From Euzebya sp. (lineage in GTDB: Bacteria > Actinomycetota > Nitriliruptoria > Euzebyales > Euzebyaceae), in contig NZ_CAXQBR010000010.1 in assembly GCF_964222135.1 (NCBI RefSeq), positions 1-64,000 of the forward strand: a DNA stretch of 64,000 nt, in the 5' to 3' direction. Every line of letters starts with the position of its first letter. The first letter of the stretch is position 1. The notes under the pieces are model-generated. The model did no database searches and was not told where the DNA came from. It saw nothing but the letters and a program-made list of their open reading frames with translations. Shown one piece after another: positions 37,637 to 50,106 of the stretch. The translations under genes and the position numbers were made by a program.

Positions 37637-38377
37637 ATGAAGCTCACCCTGAACGTCTGGCGCCAGGAGTCCCCCGACGCGGCCGGCCGCTTCGAGACCT
37701 ACCAGCTGGCCGACGTCAGCGAGGACATGTCGTTCCTCGAGATGCTCGACGTCCTCAACCAGCAGCTCATCGAGCGCGGCGAGGAGCCGGTCCACTTCGA
37801 CCACGACTGCCGCGAGGGCATCTGCGGCTCGTGCGGGCTGATGATCGACGGCCAGGCCCACGGCCCCCAGCGGTCGACGGCGACCTGCCAGCTGCACATG
37901 CGCCACTACGCCGACGGCGACACGATCACGATCGAGCCGTGGCGCGCCCAGGGCTTCCCCGTCATCAAGGACCTGGTCGTCAACCGCTCGGCGTTCGACC
38001 GGATCATCGAGGCCGGCGGCTACATCTCCATCCCGACCGGCTCGGCGCAGGACGCCAACCTCATCCCGGTGGAGAAGGACGTCGCCGACGAGGCCTTCGA
38101 CGCCGCGGCGTGCATCGGCTGCGGGGCCTGCGTGGCCGCCTGCCCGAACGGCGCCGCCCAGCTGTTCACGTCCTCGAAGATCCACCAGCTGAACATGCTC
38201 CCGCAGGGCCAGGCCGAGCGGCACACCCGCACGCGCGACATGGTGGACACGATGGAGGCCTACTTCGGCTCCTGCACCAACATCGGGGAGTGCTCGGTCG
38301 CCTGCCCGAAGGACATCTCCCTCGACCACATCGCGGCCATGAACCGCGACTACCTCAAGGCCAAGTTCAGGGGGTAG
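37637..38377 (+). CDS. sdhB: succinate dehydrogenase iron-sulfur subunit
   Basis: A 246-residue electron-transfer subunit. The plant-type [2Fe-2S] ligands are in [12 protein letters not shown] with a later Cys (TATCQLH). The bacterial-type clusters are in [12 protein letters not shown] and [20 protein letters not shown] precedes the ATG. The stop lies 11 bp inside the convergent CvnD-type GTPase gene, so the two 3' ends overlap. Confidence 0.96.
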
Positions 38378-39002
38378 TGGCGGCGCTCGGGATCCGGCGG
38401 GCCCTCGCCATCGCGTGGCGGACGACCGAGGCGAGGGCGACCTTGACCTGGGCGCGGTCCCGGGCGTCGGTCAGCAGCACGGGGGTGTCGTCGGCGACCT
38501 GGAGGGCGGCCCGCACGGCCTCGGGGGTGTGCAGGACCTGGCCGTCGAAGCAGTTGATGGCGACGACGAAGGGCAGGTCGCGCTCCTCGAAGTAGCTGAC
38601 CGCGCCGAAGCAGTCGGCCAGGCGGCGTGTGTCGACCAGCACCACCGCGCCGACCGCCCCGACCGTCAGGTCGTCCCACATGAAGCTGAACCGCTCCTGG
38701 CCCGGCGTGCCGAAGAGGTAGAGGTACAGGTCGTTCCCGAGCGAGATGCGGCCGAAGTCCATCGCGACGGTCGTCGTGGTCTTCGCGTCGCCGAGCAGCG
38801 ACGTGTCGTCCACGCCGATGCTCGCCTCGGTCATCGGCACCTCGGTCGTGAACGGCGTGATCTCGGTGACGGAGGTGACCAGCGTCGTCTTGCCGACGCC
38901 GAACCCGCCGGCGATGACGATCTTGACGGACGTGGGACCACGTCGCGCCGTCGGCCCGGGGCGCGTCGCGGCCCCGGGGGCGTCAGAGCGATTCGATTCC
39001 AT
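38367..39002 (-). CDS. cvnD: CvnD-type small GTPase (conservon ATP/GTP-binding protein)
   Basis: A 211-residue Ras-like/MglA-like GTPase: P-loop [12 protein letters not shown] (G1), switch region FGTPGQERF (G3) and AINCFDG (G4, weak NKxD equivalent). It is the output GTPase of the conservon, normally regulated by the roadblock protein and the kinase-like CvnA. ATG 39002 is preferred to the adjacent TTG because GAGGA lies 8 nt before it. It overlaps the CvnC gene by 20 bp and converges with sdhB. Confidence 0.92.
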
Positions 39003-39330
39003 CAAGCACTTCCTCGAGGAGAGCCAGGTCGTGGCGGACGTCGACGGTCCGCCGGTCGCTGCCGTGCACCTGCAGGGTCCCGTCGGCGAGCAGGTCGGCC
39101 AGCAGCACGCGGATGACGCCGATCGGCAGGTCGAGCGCCGCGCTCAGGTCGACCAGCGACTGCGGCGCGGCGGCGCAGCGCTCGATGATCCTGGCCTGCT
39201 CCGGGGACAGGCCCGGCGGGGCGCCGGCGGCGACGCCGGACACCATCGCATCGAGCGACAGGTCGGCGTCCGCACGCGTCCGGCCCTGCACCAGGGCGTA
39301 GGCCCGCAGCCGTCGTGGTGGTCGTGACAT
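38983..39330 (-). CDS. cvnC: DUF742 protein (CvnC)
   Basis: A 115-residue DUF742 protein with a winged-helix-like core (SLVDLSAALDLPIGVIRVLLADLLADG) and the short N-terminal RLRAYALVQGRT found in conservon CvnC proteins. It lies between the roadblock and GTPase genes as in other conservons. Its exact biochemical role is not settled; it is assumed to be an adaptor or DNA-binding-like partner in the GTPase switch. Confidence 0.9.
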   Translation of the reverse strand: MSRPPRRLRAYALVQGRTRADADLSLDAMVSGVAAGAPPGLSPEQARIIERCAAAPQSLVDLSAALDLPIGVIRVLLADLLADGTLQVHGSDRRTVDVRHDLALLEEVLDGIESL

Positions 39331-39343
39331 GGGCGAGGACCCC

Positions 39344-39757
39344 TCAGCGCGGCAGCTGCGCGCGCATGCTCTCGATCAGCTGGGGGCTGAGCGCGCCGCC
39401 GACCTGCTGGCCCAGCGTCGCCATCTCGTGGCCGATCAGCCCGATGTCGCTGCCGGCGGCGGTCAGCACCGCCAGCACCGCGCCCTCGCGCAGCGACGTC
39501 AGGACGATGTAGCCGTTCTCGTAGGCCACCATGACCTGCCGGAGGGCACCGCCGTCGAACACCCGGGACGCGCCGCGGGTGATCGACGCGAGCGACGACG
39601 CGACGGCTGCGACGCGGTCCGCCGTGGCGCGGTCCAGCCCCTCGGACGCGGCGATGAGCAGCCCGTCCACGCTCACCACGATTGATTCGATCACCCCCGG
39701 CGTCCGGTCGGTGAACGAGGTCAGGAGCCAGTTGACGTCGGTCCCGGTGTGCATCAT
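39344..39757 (-). CDS. cvnB: roadblock/LC7 domain protein (CvnB)
   Basis: A 137-residue roadblock/LC7 protein (VNWLLTSFTDRTPGVIESIVVSVDGLLIAAS, read in part, then DRVAAVASSLASITRG). In conservons and in MglA/MglB systems such proteins act on the partner GTPase as exchange or activating factors. The start abuts the CvnA stop directly (39757/39758). There are two tandem ATG codons at 39757 and 39754. Confidence 0.92.
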   Translation of the reverse strand: MMHTGTDVNWLLTSFTDRTPGVIESIVVSVDGLLIAASEGLDRATADRVAAVASSLASITRGASRVFDGGALRQVMVAYENGYIVLTSLREGAVLAVLTAAGSDIGLIGHEMATLGQQVGGALSPQLIESMRAQLPR

Positions 39758-42232
39758 TCAGCTCTCTCGTGTGGGGAAGGGGGTGGACCAGCCCGAACCG
39801 GCGCCCGGCCGCGTCGGACCGCTCCGCGGCGGCGTCGGCCGGGGCTGCTCGGCCACCGGCGGGGCGGGGGCGGGTTCCGGGACCGCCGGTCGGGCCGCCG
39901 ACGAGGCGGGTGCCGGCGCGGTGGGCGCCTGCGGAGCGGCCGGCGCGCCGGCGACCGGGGTGTCGGGCTCGTCACCGGAGAGCCCGGCCATCAGGGCGCT
40001 GATGGCGAGGGGGTCGAGGTCCACGGTGCGCCCGCCGGACGCCGCGGAGAAGCTGCAGGACGGCGTTGCCTCCTGCGCCTCCCGGCGGGGGAGGCCGGCG
40101 CGGTGCGGCAGGTCCGCGACGGGCGCGGGCTCGACGTCGTCGGGCAGGTCGGGCGGGGTCGCGATGTCCGCGTCGAGCAGCTGGCCGAGGGCCGACAGGG
40201 CGTCGCCGGAGGACTCGAGCGCCGGCGAGCGCGTGGGGGACGGCAGGGCCCGGTCGCGCACCTCGCGCGCAGGCGCCACCTCCCTCGCGGGGAGGCTTGG
40301 GATGCCCGGCACCTCGTCCTCGGTGACGACCGCCGGTGCCGCGGCGGCGGACGCGGCCTGCCCCTCGAACAGCGCGCGCGGGACGAGCACCTCCACGACC
40401 AGGCCCTCGCCGTCGTCCCCGCGGTCCACGTCCACGGCGATGCCGAGGCGGGTCGCGAGGAGGCCGACGACGTACAGGCCGAGCCGACGGGACTCGGCGG
40501 CCTCGAGCAGCGGCGGTTCGGCGAGCCGCCGGCGGGCGTCGGCCATGTCCGCCTCGGCCATGCCGAGTCCCCGGTCGGCCACGCGGACGAGGACGCCGTC
40601 GTCCACGGCGTGGGCGGTCACGGTGACCCTCGTGGTGGGCGGGGAGAACTGCGTGGCGTTCTCGATCAGCTCGGCGAGCAGGTGGCTGAGCGGCGTGGCG
40701 GCGTACCCGACGACCTCGTCGTAGAGGCTCACGCGGACGTCCACCCGGGCGTACTGCTCGATCTCCGCGGCGGCGGTCCGGACGACGTCGACCAGCGGCA
40801 CCGGCGTGGTCTCCTGGCCCCCGGGGAGGCGACCGGAGCTGAGGAGGAGCAGGTTCTCCGCGTTGCGGCGCATGCGGGTCGCGAGGTGGTCCAGGCGGAA
40901 CAGCTGGGCCAGTTGGTCGGGGTCCTCCTCACGGTCCTCGAGGTGGTCGAGCAGGGCGAGCTGTCGCTCGACGAGCGCCTGCTCGCGCCGCGCGACGTCC
41001 TCGATGGTCCGGGTGACGCCAGCGCGCGTGGCCGCCTGGTCGGCGGCGACCCGCGTCGCCTCCTCCGTCGAGGCCTGGATCGCACGGGCCAGGTCACCCA
41101 GCTCGTCGGTGCGGCCCACCAGCTCGACCGAGGCCTCGTCGGAGAAGGCGACGACCTCCGGCTGCCGGCCGTGCGCGATCACCTCCACGGACTCGGGCAG
41201 GGTCGTGCGGACGGTGTCGGCGACGGTGGTCAGCTGCCGCAGGGGGAGGAGGACCTTGCGCTGCAGCACCAGCAGGACCAACCCGACCAGCGCCAGCACC
41301 ACCAGCGCCAGGCTGCCGAGGGACGCGGCGTCGGCGACCGCGCCGGTCCGCACGGCCGCGGCCTCGTCGACCGCGCTGGCAGACCAGCGGAGCTCGAGGT
41401 TGCGCAGCGCCTCGGCGTTCGCCGCGGTCACGTCGGCCGCGGACCGCCCGTCCCCGGTGCCCTCGACGAGGTCCTCCGCGGAGGGGATCTGGTCGACGAT
41501 CGCGGCGAGCTCGGCCTGCTCCGCCGTGTCGAGCAGCCCGGCGGCCACCCGGGCCCAGCTGCGCTGCTCGGTCACCGCGACGGTCAGCAGCTCGGCGGCG
41601 ACGTCGTCGTCGATCGCGTCGGCCGTCGTCAGGACGGCCACGTCACCGGCCCGGAACGCGGCGTCCTTCAGGTGGCTGATCGCACTCGACGCGCGGAGGC
41701 GGTCGGTGACCGCCGGCTCGTCGATCGCCTCGGTCACCGCGACGTCGACGGCGAGCAGCGCCTCCACGGGACCCTCGAACGAGCCGATGATCGACCGGGC
41801 GTCCGCCCGGCCACCGGACATGTTGAAGCGGAGGGGACCCAGCGCCGCCAGGCTGTCCTGCGCCTCTGCGTGGGCGGCCAGCACCTGCGGTGCGGTCGTG
41901 GCCAGGTCCAGGGCACCGATCGTCGCGTCGACGTTCGCCTGCGAGCCGTCCACGCGCTCGCGGGCGGCGATGAGCGCCTCGGTCTCGACGCCGACCCGCT
42001 CGCCGGCGGCCCAGCCGGCGACGGTCTCGAAGCTGCGGGTCCGCTCCAGCTGGAGGCTGTGGAGCAGGTCGCGCTCGGCCTGGGACGCGCGGGTCAGGGC
42101 CTCGATGTCAGCGGTCCGGCTCACCACGCCCAGCGCGTCGACCAGCCGCAGGCCCGCCACCACGACGAGGATCGCGGCGGGCACGGCGAGGAGCGCCACC
42201 AAGCGCGTGCGGATGCTGGTACGTGCGAGCAT
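39758..42232 (-). CDS. cvnA: conservon sensor kinase CvnA (NIT-HAMP-histidine-kinase-like)
   Basis: An 824-residue membrane receptor. A first helix (about 10-30) precedes an extracytoplasmic helical region of NIT type (ERDLLHSLQLERTRSFETVAG), then a second helix (about 310-330), a HAMP linker and a kinase-like core (LDHLATRMRRNAENLLLLS with the conserved His, LIENATQFSPP and VADRGLGM). The last 200 residues are a disordered Pro/Ala-rich tail. CvnA proteins sit at the head of the CvnA-D module, which signals through the GTPase rather than a response regulator. No response regulator is adjacent. Confidence 0.92.
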   Translation of the reverse strand: MLARTSIRTRLVALLAVPAAILVVVAGLRLVDALGVVSRTADIEALTRASQAERDLLHSLQLERTRSFETVAGWAAGERVGVETEALIAARERVDGSQANVDATIGALDLATTAPQVLAAHAEAQDSLAALGPLRFNMSGGRADARSIIGSFEGPVEALLAVDVAVTEAIDEPAVTDRLRASSAISHLKDAAFRAGDVAVLTTADAIDDDVAAELLTVAVTEQRSWARVAAGLLDTAEQAELAAIVDQIPSAEDLVEGTGDGRSAADVTAANAEALRNLELRWSASAVDEAAAVRTGAVADAASLGSLALVVLALVGLVLLVLQRKVLLPLRQLTTVADTVRTTLPESVEVIAHGRQPEVVAFSDEASVELVGRTDELGDLARAIQASTEEATRVAADQAATRAGVTRTIEDVARREQALVERQLALLDHLEDREEDPDQLAQLFRLDHLATRMRRNAENLLLLSSGRLPGGQETTPVPLVDVVRTAAAEIEQYARVDVRVSLYDEVVGYAATPLSHLLAELIENATQFSPPTTRVTVTAHAVDDGVLVRVADRGLGMAEADMADARRRLAEPPLLEAAESRRLGLYVVGLLATRLGIAVDVDRGDDGEGLVVEVLVPRALFEGQAASAAAAPAVVTEDEVPGIPSLPAREVAPAREVRDRALPSPTRSPALESSGDALSALGQLLDADIATPPDLPDDVEPAPVADLPHRAGLPRREAQEATPSCSFSAASGGRTVDLDPLAISALMAGLSGDEPDTPVAGAPAAPQAPTAPAPASSAARPAVPEPAPAPPVAEQPRPTPPRSGPTRPGAGSGWSTPFPTRES

Positions 42233-42298: not shown

Positions 42299-44536
42299 TC
42301 AGCCCCCACCTTGAGGATCGGTCCCCGCCGATCCGACGGACATCTCCTCGAGCGCGCGGGGCAGCTCCTCGATGCGGTCCTTCGGCACGAACGGCACGCC
42401 GAGGTCGCGGCGGTGCCGCTCGAGCTCGGGCGGCGCCATCACCGACCAGAAGACGAACGCCTGGAAGGGCCGGTGCCGCCGGACCTGCTCGACGACCTGC
42501 GGGCCGGACACCGCCGGCATCATCACGTCGCAGAGCACCAGGTCGGGTTCGTCCCGGAGGATCCGGTCGATGGCCGTCGCCCCGTCGTGGGCCGTCCCGA
42601 TCACGCGCAGCGGTCCGCCGCTCGCCTCGATGATGCGCTCGGCCAGCAGCACCATCGCCGGATCGTCGTCGACGATGAAGACCGTCCGCACGTCCCCGTC
42701 GCGCGCCACCGTGACCGGAGGGGGGGCCGCTGCCAGCGGCAGCTCGCGACGCTTGCGGTGCCGCTTGTCGGCCAGCATCGTCTGGTCGGCGCGCGCCAGC
42801 AGCTCGAGGTCGACGCCCTCGTCGGGTCCGGCGACCGCCCACCCCACGCTCGCACCCAGCCCGACGCGACCCACCGCCGTCGTGTAGGGCTCCCCCAAGA
42901 GGTCCTGGATCCGGTCGCCGATGCCGGCGAGCTCGGACTCCGCCGCGCCGGGGTCGAGATCCTCGCACAGCACCACGAACTCGTCGCCGCCCACCCGCGC
43001 CGCGGTGTCGGCGGCCCGCAGCACCGTCCGGAGGCGCAGGGCGACCTGGACCAGCACCTCGTCGCCGGCGGCGTGCCCCAGGTCGTCGTTCACGGCCTTG
43101 AACCCGTCGAGGTCGACCATCAGCAGCCCGGTGGCGCTCCGGTGGCGCTCCGCGGTGCGGCGCGCCCGACCCATCCGGTCGATCAGCAGGGTCCGGTTCG
43201 CGAGCCCGGTCAGGCTGTCGTAGAGCGCGCGGTGGCGGAGCTGGGTCGCCTCGGCGGCTGCGGCGTGGTCGGCCTCCACCTCGTCGGTCACGTCCCGGGT
43301 GGTCACGACCATGTGGGCGTCGTCGGTCGCGTCGAGCTGCGGCAGGGTCCTGATGGTGAGCGCGTGCCAGTGCCGGCTGCCATCGGCGCGGATCAGGCCG
43401 TACACCTCGTCCTCGATCGCCTCCCCCCGCTGGGCGCGCACCAGCGGCATCTCCTCGGGATCCAGCAGGCGACCGTCGCGGGACAGGATCTGGGCGTCCA
43501 TCTCCTCGGCCGTCCGACCCACGCCCGGCTCGCCGGTCCACCCGAGCAGCGCCCGACCCGCCGGGTTGATGCTGATCGTCCGCAGGTCGGCGTCGACCAG
43601 CATGACCCCCTCGGCCAGCGCGTCGAGGATCGACGCCGCCTGCTGCTGGCGGGCCAGGGCGACGCGGTGGCCCCGCCGCGCCTGCTCGGCCTTCAGGTAC
43701 GCGGCGGCGACCACCAGCCCGATCATCACCAGCAGGGCCTGGGCCGACCGCAGCTGGCCGAGGTCGGCGTCCGCGATGCGCAACCCGACCCCGGCGGTGA
43801 GCCCGACGAACGCCGGGATGGCTGCTGACTGCACCAGCGTGGTCTGCATGGCCGCGATCGGGGGGATCGCCAGGCACACGAGGAAGGTGCTCGGCACCTC
43901 GGCGTCGACGGCCAGGAGCCCGATGGTCCCGCCCGCGACCGCCGCAGCCACCGCCAGACGGCTGCGGCCGCTGCGGTCGCCGCCGACGTCGCCGAACGCG
44001 AGGCCGATGGCGAGCGGCAGGACGGTGGTCAGGCCGACGATCGCGGCGACGAACTGGCCGGCCACACCGGTCGTCGTCCCGGCGACGGCGCTCCCGAGCC
44101 CCTCGGCTGCCAGCGGGACGACGAGCATGGACAGACCGGGGACGATCAGCAGGCGGGGGTCCTCCGGCGGGGTCGTGACCCGGCGGTGCGCCGGGAGGGC
44201 GGCCAGGCCGTAGACCGCCAGCGCCACCGCGACGCCGAGGGCCCTCGCCGGCGAGGGAGCGGCGCCCGCGACGAGGAGCTCGACGACGCCGCCGGTCGCC
44301 GCCACCAGCGGCAGCGACCACCAACCGCAGATGATCACGGCCGCGCTGGCCACCGCCGGGCCGACCGACCACAGCGGCATCCCGTCGACGGTCACGAGCG
44401 CCGACACGAGCCGCCCGACGACGACCGCGAGCACGATCAGGACCCCCACCGACACCGTGGGGGAGGTCGCGCGACGCGACAGCGTCTCCATCCGCCTCTC
44501 CGATCGGCCTGCGGCCCCGCCAGGTGAGCCGGTCAT
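42299..44536 (-). CDS. membrane PAS-GGDEF diguanylate cyclase with C-terminal receiver domain
   Basis: A 745-residue protein. The N-terminal third is a multi-helix membrane sensor (about 25-285, MASE-like), followed by a PAS domain (about 300-425) and a GGDEF domain (YDSLTGLANRTLLIDRM, ARVGGDEFVVL) with an intact I-site RAAD five residues upstream. A REC domain ends the protein (about 620-745; VFIVDDDPAM, VLCDVMMPAVSG). No EAL domain is present. The receiver at the C-terminus, after the cyclase, is an unusual order. The start at 44536 lies 12 nt after TAGGGT; ATG 44491 is an alternative. The gene is upstream of the conservon on the same strand. Confidence 0.88.
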   Translation of the reverse strand: MTGSPGGAAGRSERRMETLSRRATSPTVSVGVLIVLAVVVGRLVSALVTVDGMPLWSVGPAVASAAVIICGWWSLPLVAATGGVVELLVAGAAPSPARALGVAVALAVYGLAALPAHRRVTTPPEDPRLLIVPGLSMLVVPLAAEGLGSAVAGTTTGVAGQFVAAIVGLTTVLPLAIGLAFGDVGGDRSGRSRLAVAAAVAGGTIGLLAVDAEVPSTFLVCLAIPPIAAMQTTLVQSAAIPAFVGLTAGVGLRIADADLGQLRSAQALLVMIGLVVAAAYLKAEQARRGHRVALARQQQAASILDALAEGVMLVDADLRTISINPAGRALLGWTGEPGVGRTAEEMDAQILSRDGRLLDPEEMPLVRAQRGEAIEDEVYGLIRADGSRHWHALTIRTLPQLDATDDAHMVVTTRDVTDEVEADHAAAAEATQLRHRALYDSLTGLANRTLLIDRMGRARRTAERHRSATGLLMVDLDGFKAVNDDLGHAAGDEVLVQVALRLRTVLRAADTAARVGGDEFVVLCEDLDPGAAESELAGIGDRIQDLLGEPYTTAVGRVGLGASVGWAVAGPDEGVDLELLARADQTMLADKRHRKRRELPLAAAPPPVTVARDGDVRTVFIVDDDPAMVLLAERIIEASGGPLRVIGTAHDGATAIDRILRDEPDLVLCDVMMPAVSGPQVVEQVRRHRPFQAFVFWSVMAPPELERHRRDLGVPFVPKDRIEELPRALEEMSVGSAGTDPQGGG

Positions 44537-44600
44537 CGAATCGTGCGGACCCTACCCGGAGTCGCCGCGGTTCAGGCCAGCGGGCTCAGGTCAGGGCGGC

Positions 44601-45590
44601 TCAGGTCAGGTAGCCGTCCAGCAGGCGGCGCGCCGCCGCGGTCGGCGTGGTCGTCCGGGCGCGCACCTCCCCCAACGCGTCGTCCATCGCCGCGGCGGCC
44701 CGCGGGTCGGACCGGAAGGCGCGGAGCAACCCGTCGGTGACCTCGTCCTGCAGCCACCCGACGTCCTGCTGGGCGCGGAGCGGCTCCAGCTGGCCGGTGT
44801 CGCGCAGGTGGTCGGCGTGGGCGCGGACGGCCGCGGCCACGTCGCCGATGCCCTCGGCGCGGAGCGCAGAGGTCAGCAGGACCCGGGGCTCCCAGCCGCG
44901 GTGGCGGCGGCGGAGCAGCGCCAGCCCCTGCCGCGCGTCCGCTGCCGCCGCTCGCGCGGCCGGCAGCAGGTCCCCGTCCCCCTTGGTCACGACGATGAGG
45001 TCGGCGAGCTCCATGACCCCCCGCTTGATGCCCTGCAGGTCGTCCCCGGCGGCGGGGGGCAGCAGCAGCGCCATCGTGTCGACGATCCCCGCCACGGCCG
45101 TCTCGGACTGCCCGACGCCCACGGTCTCCACCAGCACGTGGTCGAACCCGGCGGCCTCGCACAGGAGCAGCACCTCCCGGGTGCGCCGCGCCACGCCGCC
45201 GAGGGCCCGCCCGTCCAACCCGACCGAGGAGGGGGAGGGGCGGATGAACGCCCCGGGCCGGGCGGCCAGCTCCGGCATCCGGGTCTTGTCCCCGAGGATC
45301 GACCCGCCGGACTGCGTGGACGACGGGTCGACGGCGAGGACCGCGACGCGCTGGTCGAGGTCGTCGACGAGGTGGAGCCCGTAGGCCTGGACGAACGTCG
45401 ACTTGCCCGCGCCCGGCGGGCCGCTGACGCCGAGCCGGACCGCGGTGCCCGTGTGGTCGAGCAGCGCGTCGAGCAGCGCCGCCGCCTCCTCCCGGTGGTC
45501 GTCGCGGGTCGACTCGACCAGCGTGATCGCCCGCGACAGGGCCCGGCGGTCGCCGGCGACGATCCCGGCGGCGAGGTCGTCAGCCGGCAC
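44601..45590 (-). CDS. meaB: methylmalonyl-CoA mutase-associated GTPase
   Basis: A 329-residue G3E-family GTPase that protects and reloads the B12 cofactor of methylmalonyl-CoA mutase. Motifs: [15 protein letters not shown] (P-loop), [32 protein letters not shown] (switch) and [14 protein letters not shown] (NKxD equivalent). The GTG at 45590 overlaps the mutase end by 11 bp; a longer upstream reading would only cover mutase sequence in another frame. Length matches MeaB/ArgK. Confidence 0.95.
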
Positions 45591-47706
45591 GCCTGCGCCG
45601 CAGGATGGCCAGCACGTCGCGGGCCGCGGTGGTGATGTTCGTCCCGGGACCGAAGATCGCCGCCACGCCCGCGTCGCGGAGCGCCTGGTGGTCACCCGGC
45701 GGGATCACGCCGCCGCAGACGACCTCGATGTCGTCCGCCCCCTGCTCGGCGAGCTGGGCGAGCAGCTGGGGCACCAGCGTCTTGTGCCCCGCGGCCTGGG
45801 AGGAGACGCCGACGACGTGCACGTCGTTGTCGACCGCGTCGCGCGCCGCCTCGGCGGGGGTCTGGAACAGCGGGCCGACGTCGACGTCGAAGCCCAGGTC
45901 CGCGAACGCCGTCGCGATCACCTTCGCGCCGCGGTCGTGGCCGTCCTGGCCCATCTTGACCACCAGCATCCGCGGGCGGCGTCCCTCCTCCTCGGCGAAG
46001 GCCTCCACCTCCGCGACGACCGCGGCGTACCCCTCGTCCCCCTCGTAGGCGGCGCCGTAGACCCCGCTGATCGACCGGATCGTGGCCTGGTGGCGGCCGA
46101 ACGCGGCCTCCATCGCGTCGCTCATCTCCCCGACGGTGGCGCGTGCCCGGGCGGCGGCGACGCACAGCTCGAGGAGGTTCGCGTCACCCCTCGCCCCCTC
46201 CTCCAGCGCCGTGAGCGCCGCACGGCAGGCGTCGTCGTCGCGCTCGGCGCGGACCCGCTCCAGGCGGGCGACCTGGGACTCGCGGACCTTGGTGTTGTCG
46301 ATGTCCAGCACGTCGACGTGGTCGACGTCCTCGGGGACGTAGCGGTTGACGCCGACGACGACGTCCTCGCCGCGGTCCACCCGGGCCTGCCGGCGGGCGG
46401 CGGCCTCCTCGATCCGCAGCTTCGGCATCCCGGACTCGACGGCCTTCGTCATGCCGCCGAGCTCCTCCACCTCGGCGATCAGCTCTCGCGCCCGGTCGGC
46501 CAGCGCGGCGGTGAGCGACTCGACGTACCAGCTGCCGCCGAGCGGGTCGATCACGTTCGGGATCCCCGTCTCCTCCGCCAGGATGAGCTGGGTGTTGCGT
46601 GCGATGCGGGCGCTGAAGTCCGTCGGCAGGCCGAGCGCCTCGTCGAAGGCGTTCGTGTGGAGGGACTGGGTGCCGCCGAGGACCGCCGCCATCGCCTCGA
46701 CGGTCGTGCGCACGACGTTGTTGTAGGGGTCCTGCTCGGTGAGGGACACCCCCGAGGTCTGGCAGTGCGTCCGCAGCATCGACGACTTGGGGTCCTGGGG
46801 GTCGAACTGCGCCATCAGCTCGGCCCACAGCAGCCGGGCGGCCCGCAGCTTCGCGACCTCCATGAAGACGTTCATGCCGATCGCGAAGAAGAAGGAGAGG
46901 CGCGGGGCGAACGCGTCGACGTCGAGGCCCGCGGCGATCGCGGCGCGGACGTACTCCACGCCGTCGGCGAGCGTGAACGCGAGCTCGAGGTCCGCCGTCG
47001 CCCCCGCCTCCTGCATGTGGTAGCCGGAGATCGAGATCGTGTTGAACCGCGGCATCTCGCGGCTGGCGTAGCCGATGATGTCGCTGACGATCCGCATGGA
47101 CGGGCCCGGCGGGTAGATGTAGGTGTTGCGGACCATGAACTCCTTGAGGATGTCGTTCTGGATGGTCCCGCTGAGCTTGGCGTGCTCGACCCCCTGCTCC
47201 TCACCGGCGACGATGTAGCAGGCCAGGATCGGCAGCACCGCGCCGTTCATCGTCATCGACACGCTCATCGTGTCGAGGGGGATCTGGTCGAAGAGGATCC
47301 GCATGTCCTCGACGGAGTCGATCGCCACCCCGGCCTTGCCGACGTCCCCCTCCACCCGCGGGTGGTCGGAGTCGTACCCACGGTGCGTCGCGAGGTCGAA
47401 GGCGACGCTGAGGCCCCGCTGCCCGGCCGCGAGCGCCCGCCGGTAGAAGGCGTTGGACTCCTCGGCGGTGGAGAAGCCGGCGTACTGCCGGATGGTCCAC
47501 GGCCGGTTCGCGTACATCGTCGCGTACGGGCCGCGGGTGAACGGCGCGAACCCGGGCAGGCCGGTGTCGGGCAGGTCGGCGACGTCGGCCGCGGTGTACA
47601 GCGGCTTCACGTCGATGCCCTCGGGCGTCCGCCAGCGCTTCTCGCCCGGCGGCGTGCCCCCGAACTCCTTCGTCGCCCTCGACTCCCAGGCAGACAGGTC
47701 ATCCAT
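45580..47706 (-). CDS. scpA: methylmalonyl-CoA mutase, catalytic subunit
   Basis: A 708-residue B12-dependent mutase interconverting methylmalonyl-CoA and succinyl-CoA. Its sequence follows the Propionibacterium large subunit closely: [16 protein letters not shown] with the active-site Tyr, [12 protein letters not shown] (Arg), [10 protein letters not shown] (His) and the cobalamin-binding loop [15 protein letters not shown] (about 570-590). The N-terminal extension is short, and no small subunit gene is adjacent, so it probably acts as a homodimer or with a subunit elsewhere. The ATG at 47706 is 7 nt after TAGCCT (47714-47719), so leaderless. It feeds succinyl-CoA toward SDH. Confidence 0.95.
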
Positions 47707-47745: not shown

Positions 47746-47803
47746 CGGCGATGTTCGGCGCGATCGGGGCCTACGTCGCCTGACGGCGACGTTCGGCGCG
47801 ATC
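47746..47803 (-). repeat. two 20-bp direct repeats and a hairpin upstream of the mutase
   Basis: CGGCGATGTTCGGCGCGATC (47746-47765) and a copy with one mismatch (47784-47803), 38 bp apart. Between and into the second copy runs the perfect hairpin ACGTCGCC-TGAC-GGCGACGT (47773-47792). The hairpin may terminate the sulfotransferase transcript and the repeats may be operator sites for the mutase. Confidence 0.65.
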
Positions 47804-47820: not shown

Positions 47821-48681
47821 TCAGCGGTGCAGCCAGCGGCGCAGCGTCGGGTCGAGGGCCTGGGCGACCCGCGCCTCGTAGGCCGCCAGGTCCGACGGGG
47901 CCAGCGCCGCGGCGCCCTCGCCCGACCGGCCGGCGCGGAAGAACGCGCCGCGATCCGCTAGGACGCCGAGCGAGTCGGGCGCGAGGTCCTCGGCGCGGGA
48001 CCGCATCGCGGCGAACGACGTGGCGCGGACGACCGCGTCGATGTCGGCGGCCGGCGCCAGGTCGAGGGCGGCTGCCAGCCGACGCACCTCGGCAGCAGGG
48101 TCCGCGGCGAGGTCGGCGTAGTGCACCAGCACCACCCCCGGGTCGTCACGCCGGCGCCAGGCGTCGGCGAGGTGGTGGAGGACGCCGGGCAGGCTGTCGA
48201 GCGCCTCGACCGGGTCCGGATCGGCGTGCACCCATCTGGACAGCCAGGTGGCGAGGGGTTCGTCGCTCGCCGCGCGGGGTGCGGCGCCGGTCAGCTCGGC
48301 CAGCCGGACCCGGTCGATGTTGCGGCGCTGGTGGTACAGCGACACCGCCGCGTCGAGGGGGTGGCGCGCGACGACCACCCGGTGGATCCGCGGGTCGTCC
48401 GGCAAGCCGTCCAGCGGTGTGTGGGACTTCACCACCCGACGGTGCGGTTGGGCGGCCAGGCGGTCGGCGACGGAGTCGATCGGCTCGACCAGGTGGTCCA
48501 CCCAGGGGCTGAGCGCGTCCAGGCGGTCGGGCAGCGCCGGCCCGTGGACCATCGTCAGGAGGACGGCCTGGACCCAGGTCGTGCCGTGCTTGGACCGGGA
48601 GGAGACGATGACGTCGCCGGGGCGGAGGGGGACCGACGCCCAGCGGGCGCTGTCCTCGTCGGCGGACCGGTACCGGCGCAC
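47821..48681 (-). CDS. PAPS-dependent sulfotransferase
   Basis: A 286-residue sulfotransferase domain protein. VIVSSRSKHGTTWVQAVL is the 5'-phosphosulfate loop (KxGTTW type) and RVVVARHPLDAAVSLYHQRR the 3'-phosphate loop with the conserved Arg and Ser. A likely catalytic His lies in KSHTPLDGLP. It would transfer sulfate from PAPS to a hydroxyl or amine of a small molecule or lipid. The GTG start is 9 nt after the stop of the alpha-oxoamine synthase gene, so both are on one transcript. Confidence 0.88.
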   Translation of the reverse strand: MRRYRSADEDSARWASVPLRPGDVIVSSRSKHGTTWVQAVLLTMVHGPALPDRLDALSPWVDHLVEPIDSVADRLAAQPHRRVVKSHTPLDGLPDDPRIHRVVVARHPLDAAVSLYHQRRNIDRVRLAELTGAAPRAASDEPLATWLSRWVHADPDPVEALDSLPGVLHHLADAWRRRDDPGVVLVHYADLAADPAAEVRRLAAALDLAPAADIDAVVRATSFAAMRSRAEDLAPDSLGVLADRGAFFRAGRSGEGAAALAPSDLAAYEARVAQALDPTLRRWLHR

Positions 48682-48690
48682 CGGAGGCGG

Positions 48691-49980
48691 CTAGGACCGG
48701 CGCGCGGCCTCGGCGCCCCCATCGACCCCGGCCTCCGCGTCGGTCAGGTCGATGACCCGACCGCCCCCGACGTCGGCGACGGCGGCCGCGAGGGTCTCGA
48801 GCAGGCGGTCGATCTGGTCGTCGGACTGCGCCAAGGTGTTGGTGAAGCGGATGCCCGCGCGACCCATCGGCACGACGGGGAACGACGACAGGTTGACCCA
48901 GAACCCGGCCTCCACCATGCGCCGGCCGACCTCTCGCCCGCGGTCGAACGAGCCGGTCTCGACGAACCAGATCGGGGTGCGGTCGGTGGACGTCAGGACC
49001 AGCCCGTGGGCTCGTGCGCGGTCGATGACCAGGTCGATCTGGGCCTCGATGCGGGCGCGGAGCTCCTCGTGCGCGTCGCTCAGCAGCAGGTCGGCGGCGG
49101 CCACCGCGGCGGCGAGGTCGGCCGTCTGGATCGGTCCGCCGAACATCAGCGGCCCGCCGCGGAACGCGACCTGCTGGGCGATCACCGGGTCGGCGGCCAC
49201 GATCGCGCCGCCCGTGGCCCCGAAGGCCTTCGCGAACGACAGGGCCAGGACCAGCCGGGGGTGCAGCGCCCGGTCCTCGACCGCGACCCCGCGCCCGTGC
49301 CGGCCCGCCCAGGCGAAGCCGTGCGCATCGTCGATGTAGGCGTGGAGCTGGGGGTGGTCGTCGAGCAGGTCGATGACCTCCGCGTTCGGTCCACGGTCGC
49401 CGAACATCGAGTAGACCCCGTCGGCGACGTACCAGATCTTCTGGTGGGAGGGGGAGAGATCGGCCACCGCCTCCTCCAGGTCGGCGAGGTCGGCGTGCTC
49501 GACGGTGCGGATCGGCACGCGGCGGGCGGCGAGGACCGATGCCGCGAGGCGGAGGGAGGAGTGGGCCTGCCGGTCGATCAGGATCGCGTCCTCGTCGGCG
49601 ATGATCGACGGCAGGGCGGAGAGGTGCCCGAGGGTCGTCGTGCCGGTCGCGATCCCGTGGGCGCCGTCGAAGATCCGCCCCAGCCGGTCCTCGAGCTGCG
49701 GGTAGTAGGGGAGGGAGGCGTACAGCCGGGAGGAGGAGAAGTGGACGCCGAACTCCTCGATCCCCTCGATCGCCGCCCGCTTCAGCTCCTCCCGACCCCA
49801 CAGGCCCAGGTAGGAGCACGACCCGAAGTTCGCGAGCCGCCGACCCCGGATGGTGATCGTCCCGTCGTCGCCCACGGCCTCCACGGTCTGGGACAGCAAC
49901 CCGTCGCGGGTGGCGGCCATGGCGTCGCGCTGCAGCTGCGCGGCGACGGTGTCACGGGTGCCGGGTCCGGTGGGGGGCAT
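48691..49980 (-). CDS. divergent alpha-oxoamine synthase (BioF/Kbl/SPT-like PLP enzyme)
   Basis: A 429-residue fold-type I PLP enzyme of the alpha-oxoamine synthase family, which condenses an amino acid with an acyl-CoA and releases CO2. NFGSCSYLGL (about 51-60), the PLP-ring Asp and His in YIDDAHGFAWAGRHGRG (about 215-231) and the Schiff-base Lys251 in LSFAKAFGATGG are clear. The usual HxxLE segment is replaced by SSSRLYASLPYYPQLED, so it belongs to a side clade, not typical BioF or Kbl. AGGAG precedes the ATG at 49980. The adjacent sulfotransferase suggests a sulfated or sulfonate-containing sphingoid-like product; this is inference. Confidence 0.85.
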   Translation of the reverse strand: MPPTGPGTRDTVAAQLQRDAMAATRDGLLSQTVEAVGDDGTITIRGRRLANFGSCSYLGLWGREELKRAAIEGIEEFGVHFSSSRLYASLPYYPQLEDRLGRIFDGAHGIATGTTTLGHLSALPSIIADEDAILIDRQAHSSLRLAASVLAARRVPIRTVEHADLADLEEAVADLSPSHQKIWYVADGVYSMFGDRGPNAEVIDLLDDHPQLHAYIDDAHGFAWAGRHGRGVAVEDRALHPRLVLALSFAKAFGATGGAIVAADPVIAQQVAFRGGPLMFGGPIQTADLAAAVAAADLLLSDAHEELRARIEAQIDLVIDRARAHGLVLTSTDRTPIWFVETGSFDRGREVGRRMVEAGFWVNLSSFPVVPMGRAGIRFTNTLAQSDDQIDRLLETLAAAVADVGGGRVIDLTDAEAGVDGGAEAARRS

Positions 49981-50106
49981 GGCAGATCACTCCTGCGGCG
50001 GGGGTCGGGCCGTGGTGCGTCGGCGTGACGCCAGGGACACCCTGCGTCGTCGTGGGGGTTCGGAGCGTGCCACACCGGTCCCTCCCCACATCGGAGGCGG
50101 TCCCAG

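Follow-up and report, generated by a model that had tools for sequence, protein, structure and literature searches.

Among described systems, a PLP-dependent synthase of the alpha-oxoamine synthase (AOS) family encoded beside a sensor histidine kinase is the arrangement of CqsA/CqsS and LqsA/LqsS, and CqsA-type signalling has been described from Vibrionaceae, Legionellaceae, Burkholderiaceae, Oxalobacteraceae, and Chlorobiaceae (PMC5289986). A second point of reference is Alb29 from the albogrisin pathway of Streptomyces albogriseolus (PDB 8XHA, 8XHD, 8XHK, 8I7U), an enzyme of natural-product formation that uses L-glutamate (PMC11906848); a third is provided by serine palmitoyltransferase (SPT) and the sulfonolipid cysteate acyltransferases (PDB 28EH, 7U7H). 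Here we analyzed an AOS gene that is followed by a gene for a PAPS-dependent sulfotransferase (ST) within a window of 64,000 nucleotides (the whole stretch of DNA considered) from Euzebya sp. We see about an even chance that this AOS is an acyl-aminoketone synthase of a probable signalling family with a CqsA/CqsS-like arrangement, its gene being accessory in this genome and standing in a pair with that of a stand-alone sulfotransferase.

The gene pair and its setting

The AOS gene (48691..49980, minus strand; 429 aa, ATG start), assigned to a PRK07505/Alb29-like clade, is preceded by a ribosome-binding site, AGGAG, read from the sequence at 49990..49994 (minus strand). A 9-bp spacer devoid of a purine-rich Shine-Dalgarno motif (48682..48690, minus strand) leads from its stop codon to the start of the ST gene (47821..48681, minus strand; 286 aa), whose GTG start is backed by homologues with N-termini at the same place. 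Both open reading frames were thus confirmed as originally predicted, on the minus strand and 9 bp apart.

The AOS protein matches PF00155 with 78.8 bits (Pfam) and contains the complete residue set of the superfamily, namely the PLP lysine, the PLP aspartate, the stacking histidine, the second histidine, and the carboxylate arginine. In an alignment of 68 relatives, K251, H140, D217, H220, and R378 are invariant, as is D218. Lys251, the PLP Schiff-base lysine, is encoded at 49228..49230, the DDAH site (residues 217–220), with the PLP-binding Asp217 and His220, at 49321..49332, and the PLP-stacking His140, equivalent to His159 of SPT (catalytic residue roles according to PMC6148460), at 49561..49563, all on the minus strand. 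The claim that Lys251 and the DDAH site are kept holds for the window enzyme. The HxxLE element had been described as lost, which applies to its histidine only: the corresponding YPQLE (residues 93–97; 49690..49704, minus strand) has Tyr93 in its place but retains Leu96-Glu97. Since a tyrosine occupies this position in 61 of the 68 relatives and Glu97 is kept in 62, the H-to-Y exchange is a mark of the clade rather than an oddity of the window enzyme. The window genome encodes no other AOS; one additional, weak match was rejected as GlyA.

The ST protein belongs to the PAPS sulfotransferase family by its PF00685 match (89.1 bits, cut-off 22; Pfam). Its predicted 5'-phosphosulfate-binding loop, SKHGTTW (48574..48594), was aligned to sulfotransferase structures, and the catalytic-histidine motif KSHTP (48415..48429) as well as the 3'-phosphate-binding motif ARHPLDAAVSLYH (48331..48369; all minus strand) were assigned by sequence and structure alignment. 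PAPS supply is provided for by two APS kinase genes in the genome. Judged by their sequences, both enzymes look intact, and the idea of a PLP enzyme that would join an amino acid to an acyl chain, encoded next to an intact-looking PAPS sulfotransferase in a genome with APS kinase, is supported.

The pair is located just upstream of a block of mutase, MeaB, and GGDEF/response-regulator genes (42299..47706, minus strand), which lies outside the pair and is conserved in the genus members compared, where AOS and ST are missing from this place. Because the block is kept in all three genus relatives (3/3) and the genes upstream of it differ, being unrelated other genes, the pair occupies a variable slot. 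Base composition lends no support to a foreign origin, as GC and GC3 of both genes resemble those of their neighbours. Between the ST and mutase genes, an 8-bp perfect inverted repeat with a 4-nt loop (ACGTCGCC TGAC GGCGACGT; 47773..47792, no strand assigned) folds as a hairpin with a z-score of only -1.36; it is a weak candidate for the possible end of an AOS-ST transcript. The same gap contains two near-identical 17-bp direct repeats, CGCGCCGAAC(A/G)TCGCCG, at 47746-47762 and 47784-47800, for which 0.04 matches are expected by chance and which possibly represent an operator. Adjoining the GGDEF/response-regulator gene, positions 38367-42232 encode a membrane histidine kinase, a roadblock-like protein, a small DUF742-like protein, and a GTPase, a set that is partly conserved in the genus and that we take to be conservon-like.

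Distribution of the synthase and of the pair

The AOS was missing from the three other genus members searched and, in searches covering 30 genomes of the order and 66 of the class, from all others of these two groups. Among 396 genomes sampled across the phylum, three possess it, the window genome included. A scan of genome and viral contigs with a three-sequence alignment retrieved 80 bacterial loci from many phyla and one on a viral contig; these 81 loci are a pattern-based draw rather than an exhaustive survey. Scans of the same contigs with single sequences gave no match, the patterns being too exact, and a plasmid search with the AOS gave none at 1e-30. On the viral contig (L095, IMG/VR), which may be bacterial rather than viral, an AOS of the clade ends 3 bp before the gene of a 955-aa histidine kinase.

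A profile built from the window ST and three close relatives, which a very distant ST could escape, found no ST in any of the other AOS loci (0/81). Conversely, no AOS was found near those ST homologues whose surroundings were read. These homologues (54–64% identity) occur in the class and beyond as single genes in differing, unrelated contexts, and a fixed partner of ST was rejected on this basis. In a genus member, a second ST homologue is encoded directly after flagellar hook-associated genes (L014:7597-8430). In another actinobacterium, two tandem sulfotransferase genes directly follow a gene that appears ketosynthase III-like by eye (L121:4583-6471). AOS and ST thus differ in their distributions among genomes, and their adjacency, seen in one genome only, is not conserved. 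Co-occurrence in other genomes had been set beforehand as the test of a functional pair, and here the original prediction failed.

These distributions, together with the variability of the slot within the genus, would be in line with AOS and ST being chance neighbours, two accessory genes acting on unrelated substrates. The 9-bp gap on the same strand, typical of co-transcribed, functionally linked genes and leaving no promoter-sized interval, speaks against it. On balance, we regard a chance neighbourhood as somewhat unlikely, yet as an explanation to be taken seriously.

Genes beside relatives of the synthase

Our preferred reading, a synthase of a probable signalling family, draws on the surroundings of the relatives. 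A sensor histidine kinase gene lies within 1 kb of the AOS gene in 40 of the 81 loci, compared with about 2.4 expected from the kinase density in distal parts of the same loci; in 25 of the 40, it is found downstream of the AOS gene, on the same strand and at a distance of no more than 300 bp. As relatedness of the loci inflates the count of 40, we placed them on a tree, in which well-supported branches force at least seven changes of the kinase-adjacency state. The kinase domains were confirmed with Pfam in examples, and their sensor parts differ. On the tree, the window AOS groups with those of Acidimicrobiia, a group in which 16 of 18 have the kinase. We found no earlier report of AOS genes beside histidine kinases in this sense, of PRK07505, or of an AOS with a sulfotransferase in open-access full texts, which are an incomplete literature. 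The recurrent link between the clade and histidine kinases is a finding worth following.

The kinases adjoining Acidimicrobiia AOS genes have in common a sensor domain in the membrane, about 325 residues long (L019:6539-7495 and its counterparts; alignment A3), to which domains in GGDEF-EAL proteins of the window genome (L098:2329-4989) and of a relative are weakly similar. In Bacteroidota, pairs of small DUF7793-type proteins are encoded between an AOS fusion and a histidine kinase (L046:10346-11149, L062:10457-11281, L067:10376-11217).

Unlike these 40 relatives, the window AOS has no sensor histidine kinase next to it, and no kinase of the relatives' type was found in its genome. A partner encoded elsewhere in the genome was considered as well but found no support, the GGDEF-EAL protein being the only one with a weakly similar sensor part.

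Other features of the clade bear on the nature of the product. C-terminal extensions of more than 250 aa are present in 27 of its AOS proteins, and a GNAT domain (PF13480) was detected in the extension of 8 of 11 scanned. An acyl-AMP ligase gene is found close to the AOS gene in two loci and a fatty acid desaturase gene in one. The fusions (L029, L031, L045, L054, L060, L063, L068, L088, and others) are encoded by ORFs of about 800 aa, the part fused C-terminally to the AOS measuring some 400 aa and having PF13480 at its end, and L029 and L063 are the loci with the acyl-AMP ligase gene. Such a fusion could be a one-protein route to N-acylated aminoketones, comparable to SPT plus an N-acyltransferase. 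Taken together, the kinases, GNAT extensions, acyl-AMP ligases, and the desaturase near AOS relatives point to an aminoketone built from a fatty acyl chain and in some cases N-acylated, and to a neighbouring kinase that often senses or at least regulates it.

The following mechanism may be envisaged. An amino acid would form an external aldimine on Lys251-bound PLP, and AOS would condense it with an acyl thioester, with loss of CO2 and release of an alpha-aminoketone, as deduced from the chemistry of the family. In the relatives, repeated adjacency suggests that this aminoketone, or a compound derived from it, probably serves as a signal for the sensor histidine kinase encoded next door. In the window, AOS and ST form a likely two-gene transcription unit that occupies the variable slot without a kinase. 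Here, ST may sulfate the AOS product, either on the amine or, after reduction, on a hydroxyl, the 9-bp gap being the ground for this assumption; alternatively, ST may act on something else. Sulfation is the weakest step of the proposed mechanism. The AOS product would carry an amine, but a hydroxyl would require either a reduction or a hydroxy amino acid as substrate; a reductase gene is absent from beside the pair.

Several observations speak against the signal reading. Adjacency could mean that the synthase is regulated by the kinase rather than that its product is sensed, and the GNAT extensions, acyl-AMP ligases, and desaturase fit the making of lipids as well. Moreover, about half of the AOS loci have no adjacent kinase, the window genome has none of the relatives' type, and ST accompanies AOS in a single genome. 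Of the proposed 'sulfated sphingoid-like lipid or signal', the signal half unexpectedly gained backing from the kinases beside relatives, whereas sulfation is tied to a pairing seen once; the window organism may make a signal or a lipid that carries sulfate.

In its boldest form, the signalling idea would have AOS enzymes outside the CqsA branch produce acyl-aminoketone signals across phyla, read by kinases and capped in this organism with sulfate by the co-transcribed ST to yield a sulfated autoinducer; we consider this improbable as a whole. A second AOS clade encoded time and again next to sensor kinases of various kinds, in Actinomycetota, Bacteroidota, Myxococcota, Cyanobacteriota, and further groups, would mean that ketone or aminoketone signals made by PLP enzymes are far more widespread than the described CqsA-type signalling. 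Each AOS-kinase pair offers an enzyme together with its candidate receptor, and the window provides a concrete pair of enzymes with a product amenable to mass spectrometry.

Alternatively, AOS and ST might be dedicated to the biosynthesis of a sphingoid-like lipid bearing sulfate, with the base formed by AOS and sulfated by ST. The tight spacing on one strand, the intact appearance of both enzymes, the availability of PAPS, and the presence of lipid-forming families among the closest AOS relatives would accord with such a unit. It is disfavored by the lack of the pair in the other loci and by the absence of a ketone reductase or N-acyltransferase gene beside it. Furthermore, the window AOS missed the curated cut-offs of the SPT models (500–670 bits) with scores of 141, 126, and 93 bits, the first two of which pair with cut-offs of 500 and 640. 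Such a lipid unit therefore appears unlikely to us.

Family assignment and comparison with known systems

Returning to the synthase itself, its best NCBIfam model is PRK07505 (NF005697), a subfamily carried at NCBI under the name 'hypothetical protein'. Among named families, it ranked first for the window enzyme as well as for the tested relatives, with scores ranging from 216 to 271 bits; the window AOS, with 216 bits, stays below the curated cut-off of 342 and is a divergent relative of PRK07505, but by this cut-off not a member. In profile comparisons with solved enzymes, Alb29 scored 250 bits, SPT 202, and BioF 191, and CqsA was among the weakest matches (about 95 bits). An AlphaFold model of the protein (mean pLDDT 91.7) gave a consistent picture: a fold search placed Alb29 first (VIA Z 48.5, rmsd 1.8 Å over 386 residues), and the first 50 solved entries listed were all AOS enzymes, in keeping with an AOS fold. 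A PLP enzyme of a divergent clade, condensing an amino acid with an acyl thioester, is thereby supported as the predicted function. The clade is widespread and mostly unstudied, with Alb29 as its nearest solved enzyme; the notion of an uncharacterised clade was accurate as to divergence and sparse study, but overlooked this characterized relative.

As to the amino acid used, a study of ThAOS tied the position of its V79 to amino acid size, AONS and SPT having a serine there. In our own alignment, this position corresponds to Ser83 of the window AOS, which suggests a predicted substrate larger than glycine.

The closeness to Alb29 raises the question of whether the enzyme makes a natural product outside signalling, from an L-glutamate-type amino acid and an acyl-CoA, that is tailored by sulfation. 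Alb29 being the nearest solved relative by both profile and fold, and likewise missing the HxxLE histidine, argues in this direction. Nevertheless, the identity is about 26%, Alb29 has been reported with a leucine where the window AOS has Ser83, and no biosynthetic genes other than AOS and ST were recognized around the pair, so that we hold a product of this type to be quite unlikely. A drifted housekeeping enzyme, whether a BioF making 8-amino-7-oxononanoate or a KBL making 2-amino-3-ketobutyrate, is hardly credible despite this being the sole AOS of the genome, as the curated cut-offs were missed widely (158 versus 426 bits for BioF, TIGR00858; 145 and 121 bits for the KBL models with cut-offs of 460 or 493), no tdh neighbour is present, the rest of the genus lives without this AOS, and no BioB exceeded the cut-off in a family search of the window genome, which makes biotin synthesis an unlikely task and agrees with the original view that the enzyme is not confined to either reaction.

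We thus return to the signalling synthase with a stand-alone sulfotransferase and its relation to described systems. As in CqsA/CqsS and LqsA/LqsS of alpha-hydroxyketone quorum sensing, the synthase gene adjoins that of a sensor histidine kinase in many AOS relatives; the window AOS, however, belongs to another family (58 bits with the CqsA/LqsA autoinducer synthase model NF005526, below its curated cut-off of 428) and its gene has no kinase partner. With Alb29, it shares AOS chemistry and the replaced HxxLE histidine, and differs from it at the substrate-size position and in overall sequence. ST has the binding and catalytic motifs of cytosolic-type PAPS sulfotransferases (PF00685); its relatives are stand-alone genes in Actinomycetota. 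SPT and the sulfonolipid cysteate acyltransferases have the same fold and type of reaction as the window AOS, which lies outside the SPT families by their cut-offs. In the sulfonolipid routes, sulfur enters with cysteate, whereas in the window it would be introduced, if at all, as sulfate by a PAPS-dependent sulfotransferase.
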